DNA from: a virus
Strand: one strand, 5' to 3'
Virus record (IMG/VR): IMGVR_UViG_3300009152_000133
Span: 1-31,294 of that record
DNA length: 31,294 nt
The translations under genes were made by a program, and so were the position numbers. Positions 15,251-22,774 of the stretch are shown piece after piece. Each line of letters opens with the position of its first letter. Within the stretch, counting starts at the first letter, position 1. The notes under the pieces were generated by a model that saw only the letters and a list, made by a program, of their open reading frames with translations, was not told where the DNA came from and searched no databases.

Positions 15251-15475
15251 ATGAAACATACAAAATTCAAAACATTTATCGGGATATGTCTGATGCCTCT
15301 GGTGTTCTCATTATTCTTATTTGATAGATTGATTATGACTTTTTTGTTCTGGTCTGAAGTTCCATCTATGAGAACATGGATGACCAAAGAGAAGTTAATG
15401 ATGATTTCATTCTGGAGAGTGTTATTAGTGATGATTATTTATGGAATAATATCATTTATAAGATGGTGCTTCTAA
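15251..15475 (+). CDS. Small membrane protein
   Basis: A 74-residue protein with two hydrophobic segments (about 8-33 and 50-71), basic residues at the N-terminus (KHTKFK) and a positive loop (RTWMTKEK). It follows an A-rich leader 20 bases after the structured RNA candidate. Its function is unknown. It overlaps the GP88-like gene by 13 bases, so it is in the same transcript. A superinfection-exclusion or membrane-remodelling role is possible but not shown. Confidence 0.6.
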   Translation: MKHTKFKTFIGICLMPLVFSLFLFDRLIMTFLFWSEVPSMRTWMTKEKLMMISFWRVLLVMIIYGIISFIRWCF

Positions 15476-16137
15476 CACAAAACTCTGATTTAAGAAAGAG
15501 TGGAATATATGGCTGGACTCTACCAGCACACTGGGTAACTTTATCCTCTGGCAAGAAGTTCAATACATGTCCCAACGCTGGAATATGTGGCGCTTTCTGT
15601 TATGCCAAATCTGGTACTTATCAATTCTCCAATGTCAAAAAAGCACATTTAGAGAAACTTGAATTAGTGCTATTCAATCGAGCCAAGTGGCTTAACCTCA
15701 TGAACGAGGAAATATCAAAACCAAAGTACACCGGCAAATTCATTCGTATACACGATGCTGGTGATTTCTTTTCAGAGCAGTACGCTCAAGACTGGCTTTA
15801 TCTAGCCAAGCAAAATCCAAAAACAATTTTCTATACATACACCAAAGAGGTGGAATTATTCAAATACAAATTAAGGCTTTCTGTACCTCCAAACTTCATA
15901 GTAATATATTCTTTTGGAGGTCGTCAAGATAAAATGATTGATACCGATGTAGACCGTCACTCAGATGTATTCCATGATTACGATGAGATGATTGCTAAGG
16001 GGTATAACGATATCGGTGAAGATGATAAACAATCTGCAATCAACCAAAATCACAAAGTAGGCTTATATCGCAATAACATAAAACACTTCATCAAAAAGAT
16101 GGGGGATAAAAACTTTTCACAATGGCAAAAAAAATGA
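15463..16137 (+). CDS. GP88-like protein with Cys cluster, possible radical-SAM enzyme
   Basis: 224 residues from ATG 15463 (MVLLTQNSDLRKSG); an in-frame ATG at 15376 lies inside the previous gene. TCPNAGICGAFCYAKSG gives Cys36-x5-Cys42-x3-Cys46, followed by IRIHDAGDFFSEQY, FYTYTKE and VIYSFGGRQD strands that fit a partial TIM barrel. This pattern matches the phage GP88 family, which looks radical-SAM-like with a spacing unlike the canonical CxxxCxxC. No activity is established. It heads the modification cluster and overlaps the first ParB-like gene by 16 bases, so it may tailor a base or cofactor. Confidence 0.6.
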   Translation: MVLLTQNSDLRKSGIYGWTLPAHWVTLSSGKKFNTCPNAGICGAFCYAKSGTYQFSNVKKAHLEKLELVLFNRAKWLNLMNEEISKPKYTGKFIRIHDAGDFFSEQYAQDWLYLAKQNPKTIFYTYTKEVELFKYKLRLSVPPNFIVIYSFGGRQDKMIDTDVDRHSDVFHDYDEMIAKGYNDIGEDDKQSAINQNHKVGLYRNNIKHFIKKMGDKNFSQWQKK

Positions 16138-16766
16138 ATTGGAAAACACAAGAGGCTCGGCTCGTAAATGTATCAGAGGTAAAATTGAATCCTCGTAACC
16201 CAAGGTCAATCAGAGACCACAAATTCAAGAAACTGGTTAAGTCAATAAAGGACTTTCCAGAGATGTTGGAGATGCGACCAATCGTAGTTGATGAGGACAT
16301 GGTAATTTTGGGGGGTAACATGCGTTTTAAGGCACTTTGCGAGGCTGGACTAACCAATGTTACAATAATTCAAATGACCGGTCTGAGCAAGGAAAAAAAG
16401 GATGAATTCGTAATCAAGGATAATGCAAGTTATGGCGAATGGGATTGGGATGCTCTGGCTAATAAATTTGATGATGTCAAATTAGGCGACTGGGGACTCG
16501 ATGTCTGGCAACCAAACGATTCAATATATTCATTAGACAACTCTGATGAGGAGCATGACTGCGAGGGAGAGGAAATACAATCAACTAATTCCGGTGATGC
16601 TTCTGGCGATAGAAATGTAGAGCCAAAGAAAGTGATACAGATTGAATTCCAGATAGGTGATTACAACGAAGCATTCGGACTTGTTACTTTGCTGAGGTCA
16701 AAGAAAGTCAACATAGGAGAGGTGCTAATACAAACAATGAAAAAAATGATTCAAAATGAAAATTGA
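16122..16766 (+). CDS. ParB-like protein, first of a tandem pair
   Basis: A 214-residue protein with the ParB N-terminal fold: NPRNPR (23-28), a helix KLVKSIKDFPEM, IVVDEDMVILGGNMRFKAL with the GGNMR motif at 64-68 in place of GERR, and VIKDNASYGEWDWDAL (97-112). Residues 150-214 are an acidic linker and a small extra domain. This subfamily is common in phages next to DNA-modifying enzymes. ParB-fold proteins include CTPases and a free-serine kinase (SerK), so it may be an enzyme and need not be a partition protein. The ATG at 16134 is an alternative start. Confidence 0.65.
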   Translation: MAKKMNWKTQEARLVNVSEVKLNPRNPRSIRDHKFKKLVKSIKDFPEMLEMRPIVVDEDMVILGGNMRFKALCEAGLTNVTIIQMTGLSKEKKDEFVIKDNASYGEWDWDALANKFDDVKLGDWGLDVWQPNDSIYSLDNSDEEHDCEGEEIQSTNSGDASGDRNVEPKKVIQIEFQIGDYNEAFGLVTLLRSKKVNIGEVLIQTMKKMIQNEN

Positions 16767-17325
16767 AATCTATCCAATAGGAGATTTAAAGCCATACGCT
16801 GAAAATCCACGCAACATCGATGAGTATAAATTCGAATCTACCAAGCAATCTATTCTGGACTTTCCGGATATGATGGGAGTGAGGTATGTCATTATCAATA
16901 AGGACAAAGAAATCCTTTGTGGTAATATGCGTTACAGAGCATGTTCTGAGTTAGGCTATGCTTCTATTCCAGCCATGATGGTTGATATGACTGATGAGAA
17001 GGCAAAAGAACTAATCATCAAAGACAATCTATCATATGGGGAATGGGACTGGGAGGCGCTGGAACTGGACTGGAATACCGGTATGGTCGATAAGTGGCTG
17101 GGGAAACAAACGATTGATTATTCGGCTCTGGACTATGAGGACCTTACTGACCAAGTAGACATGATGACTTCTGGCGTTAAACACGCAATACAGATAGTAA
17201 TTGATGCAGAACACTTCGATATGGCAAAAGACTTAGAGAAGGAATGTAGGGAACGCAAACTATACATAGGAGGCAATCTACTAGAAGAACTGCAAAACAC
17301 TCGGAGAGCGTATGAAAACCATTGA
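16756..17325 (+). CDS. ParB-like protein, second of a tandem pair
   Basis: A 189-residue paralogue of the preceding gene: ENPRNIDEY (about 16-24), LDFPDMMGVRYVIINKD, ILCGNMRYRA (53-62) and IIKDNLSYGEWDWEAL (87-102). Cys55 stands where the first copy has Gly. The middle and C-terminal parts diverge, but both end in a similar domain (HAIQIVIDAEHFDMAKDL against KVIQIEFQIGDYNEAFGL), so the whole gene was duplicated. It overlaps the copy before by 11 bases and the dioxygenase after by 14, which implies joint expression and probably a joint complex. Confidence 0.65.
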   Translation: MKIEIYPIGDLKPYAENPRNIDEYKFESTKQSILDFPDMMGVRYVIINKDKEILCGNMRYRACSELGYASIPAMMVDMTDEKAKELIIKDNLSYGEWDWEALELDWNTGMVDKWLGKQTIDYSALDYEDLTDQVDMMTSGVKHAIQIVIDAEHFDMAKDLEKECRERKLYIGGNLLEELQNTRRAYENH

Positions 17326-18100
17326 TTTAGGCATTGTAAAGCACAACTGCAAGGTAGGTGATGTATGTGGTATGATTTCACCCAATGTTACAGAGGACTG
17401 CTTTCTGGCTGACGGCGATGAGATTATAGGATTCTACATTCGTGATATACGCAAACACAATCCAATGTTAGCAAAGTATGTAGCAATAGCCAATGCTGAA
17501 TTTCGCTCCAAGCGAGTACCCAAGGCGACTATGTCAAGGTCATCAGCAGTAAATGCTCGTAGGGAAGGAGGTCTGGGTGTAGAACAATACTCTACAATCA
17601 TTGGCTCAGTTCCTCCAAAGCCTCACATGAGGAGAGCGTATCCTACAAGGAGTAGTGTACATGATGTTAAGAGCGCTGAGGTCTTTATCAAAGCCATGCT
17701 AAATGTATGTAGGGAGAGCGAAGAGTTAATAAAACTTCTAACACCTCACATCTATGAGCAACAACAACGAATCATCGCTGAGAATGTACCGGAGGAGTGG
17801 AGGTTAGGAACGCTATTCACATCATCCATATCCAACTACAACATCAGCGCTTCATATCATGTTGACAATGCAAATCTCAAAGGATGTGTAAATGTTATTA
17901 TAGCCAAACGAGAGGGCAGTAGAGGGGGGAATACAACAGTCCCAGACTATGATGCTACCTTTGGCTCTTTTGACAATTCGATGCTGGTCTATCCGGCATG
18001 GCGCAATCTACATGGAGTGACACCAATAGTACCTACTGAGCCGAATGGTTACAGAAATACTCTGGTGTTCTATCCACTAAAAGCATTCCGAAATGAGTGA
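17312..18100 (+). CDS. 2-oxoglutarate/Fe(II) dioxygenase, TET/JBP-like
   Basis: A 262-residue protein. The C-terminal half has a complete double-stranded beta-helix dioxygenase signature: SYHVDNAN with His183 and Asp185, RGGNTTVPDYDATFG, NLHGVTP with His234, and GYRNTLVFYP with Arg248. The two His and the Asp bind iron; the Arg binds 2-oxoglutarate. An N-terminal region of about 150 residues is unassigned. This form fits phage dioxygenases of the TET/JBP superfamily that oxidise 5-methyl groups in DNA. With a 5-hydroxymethyluracil-kinase-type gene downstream, oxidation of thymine is the most economical proposal; 5-methylcytosine cannot be excluded. Confidence 0.7.
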   Translation: MKTIDLGIVKHNCKVGDVCGMISPNVTEDCFLADGDEIIGFYIRDIRKHNPMLAKYVAIANAEFRSKRVPKATMSRSSAVNARREGGLGVEQYSTIIGSVPPKPHMRRAYPTRSSVHDVKSAEVFIKAMLNVCRESEELIKLLTPHIYEQQQRIIAENVPEEWRLGTLFTSSISNYNISASYHVDNANLKGCVNVIIAKREGSRGGNTTVPDYDATFGSFDNSMLVYPAWRNLHGVTPIVPTEPNGYRNTLVFYPLKAFRNE

Positions 18101-19103
18101 TACAATATTCAAGATTAAGTCATACGACAGAAATCAAGTACAATGGGAAAAGCATCTATACGACCTTACTCCAGTCGAAAAACACGATGGAATCTGGTTT
18201 AAGCGAGAGGACTATTTTGCACCTCTGGGGTACGACTCTGTAAATGGTAGTAAGTTACGACAATGTATCTATCTGGTTAATCGATGGGTAAAGACCAAAA
18301 GAATATCCGGTGTGGTTTCTGGCTCAGTAGTAGGCTCACCACAACATCCATTCATCGCTTCAATCTGTAAGCATTATGGAATAGGATGCCTTATCGCTAC
18401 CGGTAGTAAAAACTACCTCGAACATAAGAACATGGTACTAGCGCATAGTTTAGGAGCCAAGTTCTATGTAGCCAAAGTAGGCTATGCAAAAGCACTACAA
18501 TCAATATCCTTTTCACTGGCTAAGAAAATCCCCAATCATGAAGTATTAGAAACTAATATCACAGTTGATGAGAAACTAAACAAACCAGAAGCCATCGAGC
18601 GCTTTCATGAGGTAGGAGCATTCCAAGTTAGGAACATTCCAGACCACATCGAAACACTTATCATACCATGTGGCTCGTGCAATTCAGTAGTATCAATTTT
18701 GTATGGTCTGGCATTACACACACCCAAGTCATTGAAGAATATTGTACTGATGGGAATTGGAAATAACGGCTCAAAAAATCTGGGGTACATACCAAAACGG
18801 CTCGGAACAATCAGTGATGTCATAGGCGTGAAAATCAACTCAAAATTTGACATGACTGAAATTGGATTCGGCTCTTCAACCTCCTCTGGTGCAAAAATGA
18901 AAATACATCATTTCAATTTGAACGGAAGTGGATATTGTCAATATTCAGACTTGATGCCTTACAAGATTTCCAGCATAGAGTTTCATCCTCGATATGAAGG
19001 AAAATGTATCAATTACATCATGGCAAATAAAGACAAATTTGCAGAATTTTGGAATGAAAAAACACTGTTTTGGATAGTAGGAAATGAGCCAAAATGGGTA
19101 TAA
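18093..19103 (+). CDS. PLP-dependent enzyme, fold type II
   Basis: A 336-residue protein. WFKREDYFAPLGYDSVNGSKLRQ (about 35-57) resembles the KRED...GGNKxRK start of D-cysteine desulfhydrase, ACC deaminase and threonine-synthase-like enzymes, with Lys54 the likely Schiff-base lysine. SGSVVGSPQHP (76-86) fits the substrate loop and IIPCGSCNSVVS (190-201) the phosphate-binding loop. In the described thymidine hypermodification pathways, PLP enzymes work on the amino acid attached to the base. Here it lies next to the dioxygenase (8-base overlap) and upstream of the amino acid:DNA transferase, so the same job is inferred. Making a free amino-acid substrate is the alternative. Confidence 0.7.
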   Translation: MSDTIFKIKSYDRNQVQWEKHLYDLTPVEKHDGIWFKREDYFAPLGYDSVNGSKLRQCIYLVNRWVKTKRISGVVSGSVVGSPQHPFIASICKHYGIGCLIATGSKNYLEHKNMVLAHSLGAKFYVAKVGYAKALQSISFSLAKKIPNHEVLETNITVDEKLNKPEAIERFHEVGAFQVRNIPDHIETLIIPCGSCNSVVSILYGLALHTPKSLKNIVLMGIGNNGSKNLGYIPKRLGTISDVIGVKINSKFDMTEIGFGSSTSSGAKMKIHHFNLNGSGYCQYSDLMPYKISSIEFHPRYEGKCINYIMANKDKFAEFWNEKTLFWIVGNEPKWV

Positions 19104-19139
19104 TTTGGCAAATGTCTAAAATGGCATTTAAGAGCCAAA
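19104..19139 (+). terminator. Hairpin directly after the PLP gene
   Basis: TTTGGC (19104-19109) pairs with GCCAAA (19134-19139), and AAATG (19110-19114) with CATTT (19125-19129), separated by a 4-base bulge. It starts on the base after the stop codon. No T-run follows, so it may stabilise or process the mRNA and need not terminate it. Part of it (GGCAAAT...GGCATTT) is shared with the region before copy A of the dispersed element. Confidence 0.4.
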
Positions 19140-19147
19140 AGAGTTAA

Positions 19148-19242
19148 TTTAAGCAACTTTCCACTATCTGCTAATAAAGGCGTTATAGAAATTGAGAAGT
19201 GAGAAACGCCTATTGGAACGAGGGGTAGAGAAGGGCAAAAAA
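19148..19242 (+). repeat. Dispersed structured element, copy B
   Basis: TTTAAGCAACTTT (19148-19160), 21 bases, GTTATAGA (19182-19189), six bases, GAAGT (19196-19200), AGAAA (19202-19206), then GAGGGGTAGAG and a run of A to 19242. GGCGTT (19179-19184) pairs perfectly with AACGCC (19205-19210). The element ends 14 bases before the ATG of the amino acid:DNA transferase gene, so it forms the leader or promoter of that gene. Confidence 0.75.
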
Positions 19243-19256
19243 TATAATATTGAAGT

Positions 19257-20354
19257 ATGGAATTAGGTAGATATTGCCAACTAAATGGCATACAAGAGGT
19301 TACAAATTTGGAGATGGGAATGGACTTTCGCAGACCAGAATATAGGCGAGAAGTATTCTTAAGATTCTATGAATTTCATCTCAAATATAAGGCACACGCT
19401 GGAGCAATTTATTACATATTTCCGTTCATTTTTGAAAAGCATAAAATGACAGATGAGCAGAAATTATGGTTTACTTTCATCAACGGATGCTCTCAAAATG
19501 TGGTCACAACATACCTCATCTGGCTGAAATTTCCAGACATAGAAAATGTCAATATCGATGAATTATCAAAATACTTTAGAGAGAATTATACCAGATTTGG
19601 ATGGGACACAGATAGGCGATATGTCAAAAATCAATTTGAAGATGTTGTCAAAATGTACATCGAACTTCTGGGGGGCAAAACACAAGAACAATTATTTGCA
19701 CCATTCCTAAAGTCAGAAAACAAGTACACCAACTTTGATAACCTCTGGTCATTCGTGATTGACAAATTTTATCTATTCGGAAGATTAGCCACATTTTCAT
19801 ATTTAGAGTATTTAAGATTGGCTGGTCTCAATATAGATTGCTCTCAATTATTCCTTGACGATATTAGTGGCTCTAAGTCCCATCGTAATGGCTTATGCAA
19901 GGTACTGGGCAGAGATGACCTTGACTGGTACAACAATGATGTGAGTTATACCGATGAGGTCTTAAACTGGCTTAAAGAGGAAGGAGCATTATTACTCCAA
20001 GAGGCTAAACAACGATTTCCACATGAGGACATATCCTACTTTACTCTGGAAACTACATTATGTTGTTACAAGTCATGGCATCGAATAAACAGACGATATC
20101 CAAATGTATACAACGATATGTTCTACAATAGAATCAAGGTCGCTGAAAACAACTGGAATGACAAAACTCCTTTCGTACTCTTCTGGGATGCTCGTAAACA
20201 AGTATTACCAAAACGGCTTAGAGTAGAGTCTAATCCAAAAGACTATGGAGTAGCACCAACCAAACAAAATCATTATCTTAAAACCGGTCAAGTCATCATG
20301 ATGGATGGTGATTGGGAGTGTTTTGAGAATCTTTATAACAACTATGTATACTAG
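19257..20354 (+). CDS. Amino acid:DNA transferase (aGPT-PPlase family)
   Basis: A 365-residue protein. FRRPEYRREVFLRFYEFHLKY (24-44) with KAHAGAIYY, then DEQKLWFTFINGCSQNVVTT (66-85) and WDTDRRYVK (116-124) match the family of alpha-glutamyl/putrescinyl thymine pyrophosphorylases, now called amino acid:DNA transferases. They replace a phosphorylated hydroxymethyl group on thymine in DNA with an amino acid. Length and motif order look complete. It is followed by the matching P-loop kinase. The identity of the amino acid cannot be read from sequence. Copy B of the dispersed element is its leader. Confidence 0.75.
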   Translation: MELGRYCQLNGIQEVTNLEMGMDFRRPEYRREVFLRFYEFHLKYKAHAGAIYYIFPFIFEKHKMTDEQKLWFTFINGCSQNVVTTYLIWLKFPDIENVNIDELSKYFRENYTRFGWDTDRRYVKNQFEDVVKMYIELLGGKTQEQLFAPFLKSENKYTNFDNLWSFVIDKFYLFGRLATFSYLEYLRLAGLNIDCSQLFLDDISGSKSHRNGLCKVLGRDDLDWYNNDVSYTDEVLNWLKEEGALLLQEAKQRFPHEDISYFTLETTLCCYKSWHRINRRYPNVYNDMFYNRIKVAENNWNDKTPFVLFWDARKQVLPKRLRVESNPKDYGVAPTKQNHYLKTGQVIMMDGDWECFENLYNNYVY

Positions 20355-20355
20355 A

Positions 20356-20856
20356 ATGAACGAGAACATACTTTTAATAGGCTCTGCTGGTACTGGCAAG
20401 ACATGGGTGATGAAATCCCTAATAAATAAATTTAAATGCGAGAGACGGCAGAAATATGGCAAATTCTATTTCCATACCTCCGATGCTCTGGTCATAGTAG
20501 GCAAATATGACGGCACTACATTCGAAGGCTCTGACCGATTGTCAATGAGTGTTATTACTGACCTCGATGCTTTCTTATCACTTACTGAAAATAAAGTAGT
20601 AATTTTGGAGGGTGATAGATTCACAAATAGCAAGGTTATAGCAAAGGCAAAACCAATAATCATTAAGATACTCGGTGATGGTCTGGCTGGGAGGCTTAAA
20701 AGAGGCTCTAATCAAACCGAGCGCCATTTGAAGTCTATTGCAACACGAGTGAGCAACATACCATTAACCGATAGGGACTACATAGTGAATAACTCTGGTG
20801 AGGCTCTTGAAATAATAACTAAAATAATCAACGGCGATGAGGAAATTAATCAATAA
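20356..20856 (+). CDS. P-loop kinase, 5-hydroxymethyluracil-DNA-kinase type
   Basis: 166 residues from ATG 20356 (MNENILLIGSAGTGKT), one base after the transferase stop; in-frame ATGs at 20305 and 20344 lie inside that gene. Walker A is GSAGTGKT (9-16). Further motifs are VIVGKYDG (46-53), GSDRLSM (58-64) and VVILEGDRF with Glu85, Asp87 and Arg88. This order resembles the P-loop kinases that phosphorylate 5-hydroxymethyluracil in phage DNA. The product would be the substrate of the transferase encoded immediately upstream. Confidence 0.7.
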   Translation: MNENILLIGSAGTGKTWVMKSLINKFKCERRQKYGKFYFHTSDALVIVGKYDGTTFEGSDRLSMSVITDLDAFLSLTENKVVILEGDRFTNSKVIAKAKPIIIKILGDGLAGRLKRGSNQTERHLKSIATRVSNIPLTDRDYIVNNSGEALEIITKIINGDEEINQ

Positions 20857-21025
20857 GATAAGATACATAATGCTAACCAAGACAGAAAGGAAACTAATAG
20901 GGATTTCTGCTATGCTTACAGAGGAATACATAAGGTCAAGAACATTCCGTAGAATGATGGACAAAACGCAAGTAGGGGACTACATTAAACAAACAATTAA
21001 TAACTGGCAAGATGAAACGAAATGA
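20837..21025 (+). CDS. Small basic protein before the terminase
   Basis: A 62-residue, helical and basic protein (KTERKLIGISAMLTEEY; SRTFRRMMDKTQVGDY), overlapping the kinase gene by 20 bases and the small terminase gene by 14. An internal start at 20870 would give 51 residues. It has no recognised motif. Confidence 0.5.
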   Translation: MRKLINKIRYIMLTKTERKLIGISAMLTEEYIRSRTFRRMMDKTQVGDYIKQTINNWQDETK

Positions 21026-21383
21026 GACAAGAACTGACATACAAAAAAAGGCGATGATTCAAGCAATGGCATCATGTCTGGGTGTAGTATCAACTGCATG
21101 TAAGAATGTAGGCATGTCGAGGCAGACACACTATGAGTGGATGCGTGAAGATTTAGACTATGCAAGGGACATAAAAGACATCGAAAACATCACGCTTGAT
21201 TTCGCTGAATCCAAACTACACGAACTTATATTTGAGGGCAATGTGGCTTCTGTAATATTCTTCTTAAAGACCAAGGGTAAGATGAGGGGATATATTGAGC
21301 GCTCTGAGGTTGATGTCAACCACTCTAAGCCGGACTTATCTGGTCTTACTACTGCTGAGTTAATGGATTTACTAAAGGACTAA
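21012..21383 (+). CDS. terS: Terminase small subunit
   Basis: A 123-residue protein. Residues 10-45 form a helix-turn-helix (KKAMIQAMASCLGVVSTACKNVGMSRQTHYEWM) of the kind found in phage small terminases of the phBC6A51 homeodomain-like class; a helical oligomerisation segment follows (DFAESKLHELIFEGNVAS). It recognises the packaging site and recruits the large subunit, encoded two bases downstream. The C-terminus (LTTAELMDLLKD) may contact that partner. Confidence 0.75.
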   Translation: MKRNETRTDIQKKAMIQAMASCLGVVSTACKNVGMSRQTHYEWMREDLDYARDIKDIENITLDFAESKLHELIFEGNVASVIFFLKTKGKMRGYIERSEVDVNHSKPDLSGLTTAELMDLLKD

Positions 21384-21385
21384 CA

Positions 21386-22774
21386 ATGGATGTCTCTGAG
21401 CGTAAAAGATATGTAAAGGAGGTCTTTAAACAAGAACTGGCTAGGCGTGACTTCTGGCAGTTTTGTTTATACTATGACCACGACTTCTATTCGGCTCGTA
21501 CTTTCTTAAAGGACATAGCGATAGCATTCCAAAAGGTCGAGGAGGGTACAATCAAATCACTATCGGTGTCCATGCCTCCAAGAGCCGGAAAGAGTTACAT
21601 CACATCACTATTCTGCGCATGGACTCTGGGACGCAATCCGGCTGAATCCGTTATGCGTAACACATGTACGGCTACATTATATCTCAAGTTCGCATACGAT
21701 GTAAGAGCCGTTATCAAGTCAGATACCTACACCATGGTATTCCCAGATGTAAGGCTTTCTGATGACAAGAAGAATCTACAAGGATGGAACACAAACCACT
21801 CCAAGCAAGTAGGTTATTTTGGCGCTGGAGTAGGAGGAACTATCATCGGATTCGGAGCAACAAAGGTCGCTATAACAGATGACTTGTATCGAGGTATTGA
21901 GGATGCTCTTAGTGATACCACCAATGACCGTATTCAACAATGGAAGCAATCAACACACGATAGTAGATTTGAATCTGGGTGCGCTCGTATTGACATAGGT
22001 ACACGCTGGTCTGTAAAGGATGTGATAGGTACGGCGATGGGAGATGGCGTGTATGAGGAGTCCTTGATAGTATCTGCATTAGATAAAGATGATAGGTCGT
22101 TCTGCGAGTCTGTAATGACCACTGAGGAGTATCATGACAAGAGGCTTCGAACGGCTAAGGAAATCTGGGTAGCAGAATACATGCAACAACCGGTGGATGT
22201 GGCTGGTCGCTTATTCGGTGATATCCAATATACATCAACAGAGGAATTGAGCGCTATCATTGAGGCTAATAAGTCACAAGCAAATCCCTCTGGCGTTGAT
22301 GGGGTGGTAGGCTATATCGATGTCGCTGACCAAGGTAAAGACTATACGGCTCTGGCAGTATGCGCTATCGTCAAAGGCTCTATGTACATCGTTGACTATC
22401 TATTCACAAGGGATAATACCGATATCACTTTGCCACTTTGCGCTGGTCTTTTATCCAAGTGGAATGCCTCGTATTGTAGGGTAGAATCCAACTCCATGGG
22501 AGCAATGTTTAGCCGTAACCTACAACGACTTTTACCTACAACGAAACTTCTCCAAGTGCATAACACGACCAACAAAGACACACGAATAATTATGCAGTCA
22601 GCATGGATTCAAATGAGGTTTAATTTCGTACTGACTGGTGATGCACACCAACACCAATTTATCAGCAACACTCTGGGTTATAGCAAAGAGGGTAAGAACA
22701 AGAATGACGATGCACCCGATTGTTTAGCCGGTCTATCAATCTTTGTCCAATCAATGTTTAAACATTTAGTATGA
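21386..22774 (+). CDS. terL: Terminase large subunit
   Basis: A 462-residue protein. The ATPase domain has SMPPRAGKS as Walker A (62-70) and VAITDDLYRG as Walker B (161-170, Asp165/166). The nuclease domain begins at GYIDVADQGKDYTALAV (309-325) with Asp312 and has a late acidic cluster NDDAPD. It pumps DNA into the prohead and cuts it. The order small terminase, large terminase, portal, protease, capsid is the standard HK97-type packaging module. Confidence 0.9.
   Translation: MDVSERKRYVKEVFKQELARRDFWQFCLYYDHDFYSARTFLKDIAIAFQKVEEGTIKSLSVSMPPRAGKSYITSLFCAWTLGRNPAESVMRNTCTATLYLKFAYDVRAVIKSDTYTMVFPDVRLSDDKKNLQGWNTNHSKQVGYFGAGVGGTIIGFGATKVAITDDLYRGIEDALSDTTNDRIQQWKQSTHDSRFESGCARIDIGTRWSVKDVIGTAMGDGVYEESLIVSALDKDDRSFCESVMTTEEYHDKRLRTAKEIWVAEYMQQPVDVAGRLFGDIQYTSTEELSAIIEANKSQANPSGVDGVVGYIDVADQGKDYTALAVCAIVKGSMYIVDYLFTRDNTDITLPLCAGLLSKWNASYCRVESNSMGAMFSRNLQRLLPTTKLLQVHNTTNKDTRIIMQSAWIQMRFNFVLTGDAHQHQFISNTLGYSKEGKNKNDDAPDCLAGLSIFVQSMFKHLV

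Follow-up and report, generated by a model that had tools for sequence, protein, structure and literature searches.

The stretch of DNA analysed here, referred to as the window, is the linear IMG/VR record IMGVR_UViG_3300009152_000133, of 31,294 bases. It is a metagenomic fragment of an uncultivated tailed phage, and its products include an ERF recombinase, NinG, terminase, portal, prohead protease and capsid proteins. At positions 15463–20856 seven open reading frames (ORFs) lie head to tail on the plus strand, adjoining or overlapping one another apart from a single 153-base gap, and these constitute a probable cassette for the hypermodification of thymine in phage DNA. All seven had been listed in an initial annotation made from the sequence alone, and all are present. 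The cassette includes a 2-oxoglutarate (2OG)/Fe(II) oxygenase, a pyridoxal phosphate (PLP) enzyme, an amino acid:DNA transferase (ADDT) and a candidate kinase of 5-hydroxymethyluracil (hmU), and is followed by the terminase small-subunit (TerS) and large-subunit (TerL) genes:

15463..16137, + strand: GP88-family protein, 224 aa; PF17338 (8.3e-46); counted as accessory
16122..16766, + strand: ParB-like protein 1, 214 aa; ParB_N (1.3e-4), phrog_498, phrog_620
16756..17325, + strand: ParB-like protein 2, 189 aa; ParB_N (3e-7)
17312..18100, + strand: TET/JBP-type 2OG/Fe(II) oxygenase, 262 aa; PF12851 (4.3e-7); proposed thymine hydroxylase acting on DNA
18093..19103, + strand: fold-type II PLP enzyme, 336 aa; phrog_3650 (9e-82); proposed to tailor the amino acid once attached
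19257..20354, + strand: ADDT, 365 aa; PF18724 (9.8e-20), phrog_3271 (3e-78)
20356..20856, + strand: small P-loop kinase, 166 aa; Walker A motif GSAGTGKT; candidate kinase of hmU in DNA on the TET route
21012..22774, + strand: terminase small- and large-subunit genes; neighbours of the cassette, outside the pathway

Comparison with a relative (L002) shows that all seven genes are under purifying selection, with ratios of nonsynonymous to synonymous substitution (dN/dS) of 0.02–0.14 at dS values of 0.8–1.5, and they are therefore real and maintained. A gene-neighbourhood search, suggested as a check in the initial annotation, finds the same gene order on other IMG/VR contigs. In total 95 loci with the oxygenase (TET loci) were collected, and as these are related to each other, counts among them are not independent events; ADDT accompanies TET in 30 of them, and in 75 a TerL gene is no further than 4.4 kb from TET. 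A near-identity search for the window among isolated phages gives no match, and GTDB genomes scanned with TET yield no relative, hence neither host nor prophage is found. The window has no Rfam match, and promoter-like sites in it are rarer than in shuffled sequences.

Front end and back end of the cassette

The oxygenase is assigned to the TET/JBP type by its family. All 46 members from other contigs or phages match Tet_JBP (PF12851) at E<=0.01, the best at 3.4e-12, and the residues highlighted in the initial annotation (H183, D185, H234 and R248, representing the iron ligands HxD...H and the 2OG-binding arginine) are invariant across these 46 relatives. A PDB sequence search returns only weak similarity to TET2, in which the C-terminal histidine and the arginine align with TET2 residues and the HxD motif does likewise at a non-significant score. 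The enzyme had been regarded as an addition suggesting a variant chemistry; as a TET/JBP-type oxygenase it probably replaces the first step instead. The family is represented at more than 500 loci in IMG/VR, and its relatives in isolated phages include those of cyanophage MED4-184 (50–51% identity) and of actinophages, whose genes are labelled variously as queuine tRNA-ribosyltransferase, oxidoreductase or Tet-like J-binding protein. The first of these labels, given by PHROGs (phrog_6059), is rejected for the oxygenase since all members match Tet_JBP. Many phage records (phrog_6059; NC_020847.1, NC_042035.1 and others) label TET/JBP-type oxygenases as queuine tRNA-ribosyltransferase or DpdA-like.

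Phages with ADDT differ in the genes through which hmU could be reached. Members of the ThyA family (PF00303) are absent from the window and from all 16 ADDT+TET records searched, which are complete or long and include the complete genomes of Tonitrus, Zemanar and LilMcDreamy. Among the four phages or fragments with ADDT and the PLP enzyme and without TET (Cba120, Vibrio 1.244.A, Montesquieu and fragment L023), Tet_JBP is found in none and HMUDK_hel in all four; ThyA is present in the three named phages and is not seen in fragment L023. The TET/JBP oxygenase appears to replace the thymidylate-synthase-like enzyme that makes 5-hydroxymethyldeoxyuridine monophosphate (5-hmdUMP) in ViI-type phages. 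An ADDT phage in these records has either TET or the ThyA and HMUDK_hel route, which would be explained most simply by an oxygenase that makes hmU from T in DNA, where other phages import hydroxymethyldeoxyuridine (hmdU) as a nucleotide. Phages ViI, M6 and phiW-14 are thought to incorporate the triphosphate, 5hmdUTP, and then to use a DNA kinase (PMC6449724).

The gene at 19257 encodes an ADDT, as the initial annotation had it, with a match to PF18724 at 71.7 bits (cut-off 26.2; 9.8e-20) covering profile positions 12–228 of 232, and to phrog_3271 at 3e-78. It shares 41–44% identity with ADDTs of mycobacteriophages, 39% with that of Montesquieu and 30% with that of the ViI-like Cba120. The Zemanar ADDT, gp3, seems to be annotated 29 codons short, with homology from about position 1765 in the same frame (L011:1765-1852). 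In LilMcDreamy an Asp/Arg beta-hydroxylase-type 2OG enzyme (gp4, L014:2656-3759) lies between an ADDT-like gene and the kinase.

The genes that accompany ADDT are exchanged among the TET loci. Of the 30 loci with both TET and ADDT, 12 carry the PLP enzyme; another 15 have a glutaminase-like gene, which matches GATase_6 below the cut-off and is joined in some loci by a GNAT gene. The PLP enzyme and the glutaminase-like gene never occur together. The exchange is clearest in two close relatives of the window (L004 and L005), with GP88 94%, TET 82%, kinase 63% and TerL 88–91% identical, in which the PLP enzyme and ADDT are replaced by a glutaminase-like protein, a GNAT protein and an ADDT only 30% identical to that of the window; on sequence comparison these are natural swaps of the back end. 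In the ADDT tree, PLP-linked and glutaminase-linked sequences stay apart, and the window's ADDT groups with PLP-linked ADDTs from either front end and with two PLP-less lineages. The Ackermannviridae ADDTs stand on their own long branch, and the high-GC actinophage sequences form long branches of unsure placement. A further 24 TET loci have an FkbM-type methyltransferase, never with ADDT. These cassettes, exemplified by L068:941-1639 and found at about 23 other loci, are ordered ParB, FkbM-type methyltransferase, TET and terminase, lack ADDT and kinase, and may reflect a second fate of the TET-made hydroxymethylpyrimidine, possibly O-methylation.

Proposed pathway and alternatives

We consider it likely that the cassette directs a post-replicative hypermodification of thymine, in which T is converted in situ to hmU and then to an aminoacyl-thymine. 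The TET/JBP-type oxygenase would hydroxylate the 5-methyl group of T in phage DNA, as JBP1 and JBP2 of trypanosomatids hydroxylate T within DNA in base J synthesis (PMC10276184), and because it would act on T in DNA, an hmdUMP synthase would not be needed. The small P-loop kinase would phosphorylate the hydroxymethyl group to give a leaving group, ADDT would swap this for a free amino acid, and the ViI-type PLP enzyme would trim the amino acid once in place, with decarboxylation the likeliest reaction. With serine as the donor the product would be 5-(2-aminoethoxy)methyl-dU (5-NeOmdU), as in ViI. The ParB-like proteins would probably choose or hold the DNA sites, and the modified DNA, packaged by the adjacent terminase, would resist host nucleases. 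The earlier proposal is supported in its type of pathway, base hypermodification of the amino-acid type, and in its genuine ADDT and ViI-like PLP enzyme; several of the gene roles assigned within it are revised.

Several points weigh against this pathway. The match of the window oxygenase to Tet_JBP (4.3e-7, 29.8 bits) is below the Pfam curated cut-off of 34.9 bits, the window kinase matches no characterised hmU kinase family, and the window ADDT is nearer to those of PLP-less phages such as Zemanar than to that of ViI. As the window is a fragment, a gene absent from it may sit outside, and the TET loci counted are, as noted, related. Fold-type II PLP enzymes usually catalyse beta-elimination or replacement and are not typical decarboxylases. 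By its title, given in PMC11347163, the one phage TET study known to us, a 2021 paper from Burke, reportedly concerns a TET active in C5-cytosine hypermodification, on 5-methylcytosine (5mC) and not on T.

The final base had been held to be unpredictable from sequence. Homology of the PLP enzyme to the one conserved in Ackermannviridae, for which 5-NeOmdU is the reported base, allows a partial prediction. It matches PALP in Pfam at 2e-3 and phrog_3650 at 9e-82 and is 38–44% identical to the Ackermannviridae PLP protein, and its homologue is conserved in 345 phage records, where among the matches listed the genera are those of Ackermannviridae hosts. Lys54, recognized in the initial annotation, and the GSxN loop (Gly194, Ser195 and Asn197) are invariant in 13 aligned sequences including those of Escherichia coli phage Cba120 and a Vibrio Ackermannvirus, and in a tree the PLP enzymes of the TET route form one supported set beside those of Ackermannviridae; a PDB sequence search gives nothing useful. 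DNA of Cba120 and Vi01 carries 5-NeOmdU (PMC11721090), which is possibly the product here too, and from that product we infer that the PLP enzyme would decarboxylate the attached serine. It is a tentative alternative that the same pathway on T ends in a different base, with the PLP enzyme eliminating, substituting or making the amino-acid donor. This would accord with the usual reactions of fold-type II enzymes and with the ACC deaminase label of the Montesquieu relative; no classical PF00282 decarboxylase is found in these phages, and the ViI-type reaction is unreadable from the family. It accords poorly with the many homologues linked to Ackermannviridae hosts, and with 5-NeOmdU being formally an O-linked decarboxylated serine.

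Profile matches bear out the GP88 and the two ParB-like proteins named in the initial annotation. ParB-like protein 2 matches ParB_N (PF02195) at 3e-7 (30.8 bits, above the curated 26.3) and ParB-like protein 1 does so at 1.3e-4 (22.3 bits, under that value), with further matches of the latter to phrog_498 'DNA methyltransferase' (5e-26) and phrog_620 'ParB-like' (1e-25). In 90 of the 95 loci, irrespective of the tailoring gene, there is a ParB-like gene no more than 3.5 kb from TET, which makes a general role, site choice for instance, plausible. Four of the five remaining loci start at a contig or locus end no more than 860 bases from TET, and in the fifth, LilMcDreamy, gene 1 is annotated as ParB-like.

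GP88 matches PF17338 at 8.3e-46 (157.1 bits; cut-off 24.4) and contains a C-x5-C-x3-C motif; the start at 15463, where most relatives begin, is the better one. It is present in a minority of cassettes and, in isolated phages, in unrelated contexts. At L122:174-4577 a GP88 that is 88% identical to that of the window, together with ParB, precedes DpdA-like, transporter (Vut_1-type), QueE-like (a radical SAM protein) and FolE genes and then terminase, the DpdA being recognized by eye and without a Pfam match; this arrangement would represent a 7-deazaguanine-type cassette in the slot of the window's thymine cassette. GP88 had been taken as a sign of variant chemistry, and is counted as accessory because it is found away from such cassettes and beside the 7-deazaguanine-type one. 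A radical-SAM-like enzyme, for which the Cys motif made it a candidate, is not claimed; the Cys-cluster N-terminus is poorly modelled (AF2 pLDDT 35–50), Foldseek returns nothing significant, and a PDB sequence search nothing useful. We think it rather unlikely that the ParB-like proteins and GP88 are unrelated neighbours outside the modification system; most cassettes lack GP88 and it occurs elsewhere, as this would have it, whereas the constancy of ParB beside TET, the fusion of GP88 to the kinase in L025, and the adjoining of GP88 and ParB to a different cassette in L122 all speak against it.

The substrate of the oxygenase could alternatively be 5mC, the cassette then building a hypermodified cytosine on 5-hydroxymethylcytosine. 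The title attributed to Burke favors this, as do some ten TET loci of one phage group with a C5-cytosine methylase about 2 kb upstream. It is weakened by the absence of such a methylase (PF00145) from the window and from all 16 ADDT+TET records, three of them complete phages; furthermore, the three TET records that have the methylase have no ADDT near TET, and ADDT is otherwise found with hmU-making phages. We therefore regard a cytosine substrate as improbable. The phage group concerned (L033–L041, L088 and L099) carries its methylase upstream of ParB and TET, and may comprise 5mC-oxidising relatives and offer a control for the choice of substrate.

The P-loop protein, by contrast with its initial description as a 5-hmU-kinase type, has weak, generic matches only in Pfam: HMUDK_hel (PF18723) matches nowhere in the window, and HMUD2 (PF18747), which matches the Cba120 kinase at 1.8e-149, is not among the families listed for it. 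It scores 17.6 bits against Ploopntkinase3 (PF18751), under the curated 27, and a profile of its own family picks up the Ploopntkinase3 proteins in Tonitrus (2.5e-9) and in Zemanar (4e-6), which makes it by profile similarity a remote relative of the TET-phage kinase; a tblastn search against phages finds none. The predicted structure (pLDDT 89) matches uridine-cytidine, guanylate, shikimate and adenylate-type kinases among others, at TM scores of about 0.5 and E of 1e-3 to 1e-4, and the model supports a small nucleotide kinase as fold class and not a substrate. Two lineages (L007/L008 and L021/L022) have the kinase in one protein with ADDT, and a single 428-aa ORF (L025:10795-12081) joins it to GP88; these fusions tie it to the pathway. 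A role in DNA packaging, to which a match to phrog_800 'terminase small subunit' (1e-8) and the nearness of TerS and TerL might point, is very improbable given that a separate helix-turn-helix-type TerS comes next, that a mycobacteriophage protein labelled terminase small subunit is itself Ploopntkinase3 at 4e-74, that the predicted structure resembles small nucleotide kinases, and that ADDT-kinase fusions occur in two lineages. That mycobacteriophage protein is Zemanar gp4 (L011:2875-3465); its label is probably wrong and perhaps shared by PHROG 800.

A more specific form of the thymine pathway can be offered as speculation: thymines selected by ParB would be oxidised in situ and finished by a ViI-type back end to 5-NeOmdU or a close relative, T would not be replaced genome-wide, and TET with kinase, and ADDT with the tailoring enzyme, would be exchangeable modules.

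Comparison with known systems

The idea that TET/JBP-made hydroxymethylpyrimidines serve as starting points reportedly goes back to Iyer in 2013. The gene combination had been put forward as new, yet its core is already present in actinophages such as Tonitrus and its TET family is widespread in IMG/VR. What appears new, as far as searched and with prior art judged from citing papers, is the joining of TET to a ViI-type PLP enzyme, a hybrid of a base-J-type first half and a ViI second half that is found only in environmental phages. Besides the window, 12 IMG/VR loci have this hybrid; ADDT is visible in 11 of them, and the other (L069) is cut by the contig end. Among the matches listed from 50,697 phage records the organisms with TET and those with the PLP enzyme do not overlap. 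If the proposed pathway is correct, phages would have two interchangeable routes to hmU before aminoacylation, one at the nucleotide level (ThyA-like) and one on DNA (TET/JBP-like). The on-DNA route could be selective for certain sites, and would make it possible to write amine-bearing thymines into ordinary DNA with enzymes; the cassette is also a source of phage candidates for a TET enzyme specific to thymine. Because close relatives exchange PLP for glutaminase/GNAT, the relation between genes and final base can be tested directly.

Among known systems, Rhodococcus phage Tonitrus has an annotated 'thymidine hypermodification system' of ParB, TET, ADDT and kinase (PMC11955845). Tonitrus and mycobacteriophages such as Zemanar share with the window the order of ParB, TET/JBP, ADDT (aGPT-Pplase2) and small P-loop kinase upstream of terminase; they differ in having no PLP enzyme of the window's kind and no GP88 in the cassette, in a TET only 24–27% identical, and in a kinase that is clearly Ploopntkinase3, that of the window being remote. 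The 5-NeOmdU pathway of Ackermannviridae (ViI, Cba120) shares ADDT and a homologous PLP enzyme, but takes its hmdU from a ThyA-family enzyme and uses HMUDK_hel/HMUD2 kinases, which are not found for the window. Glutamicibacter phage Montesquieu similarly has an ADDT (39% identical) with a fold-type II PLP enzyme beside it and Ploopntkinase3-type kinases, with ThyA/pyrimidine hydroxymethylase and HMUDK_hel in place of TET. Trypanosomatid base J synthesis, by JBP1/JBP2 and a glucosyltransferase, shares the first step of TET/JBP hydroxylation of T in DNA; no glucosyltransferase is identified here, and hmU would instead be activated and aminoacylated. The cassette of cyanophage MED4-184 resembles that of the window in its TET, in ParB upstream and in TerL downstream, but where the window has ADDT, kinase and PLP enzyme it carries an FkbM-type methyltransferase.

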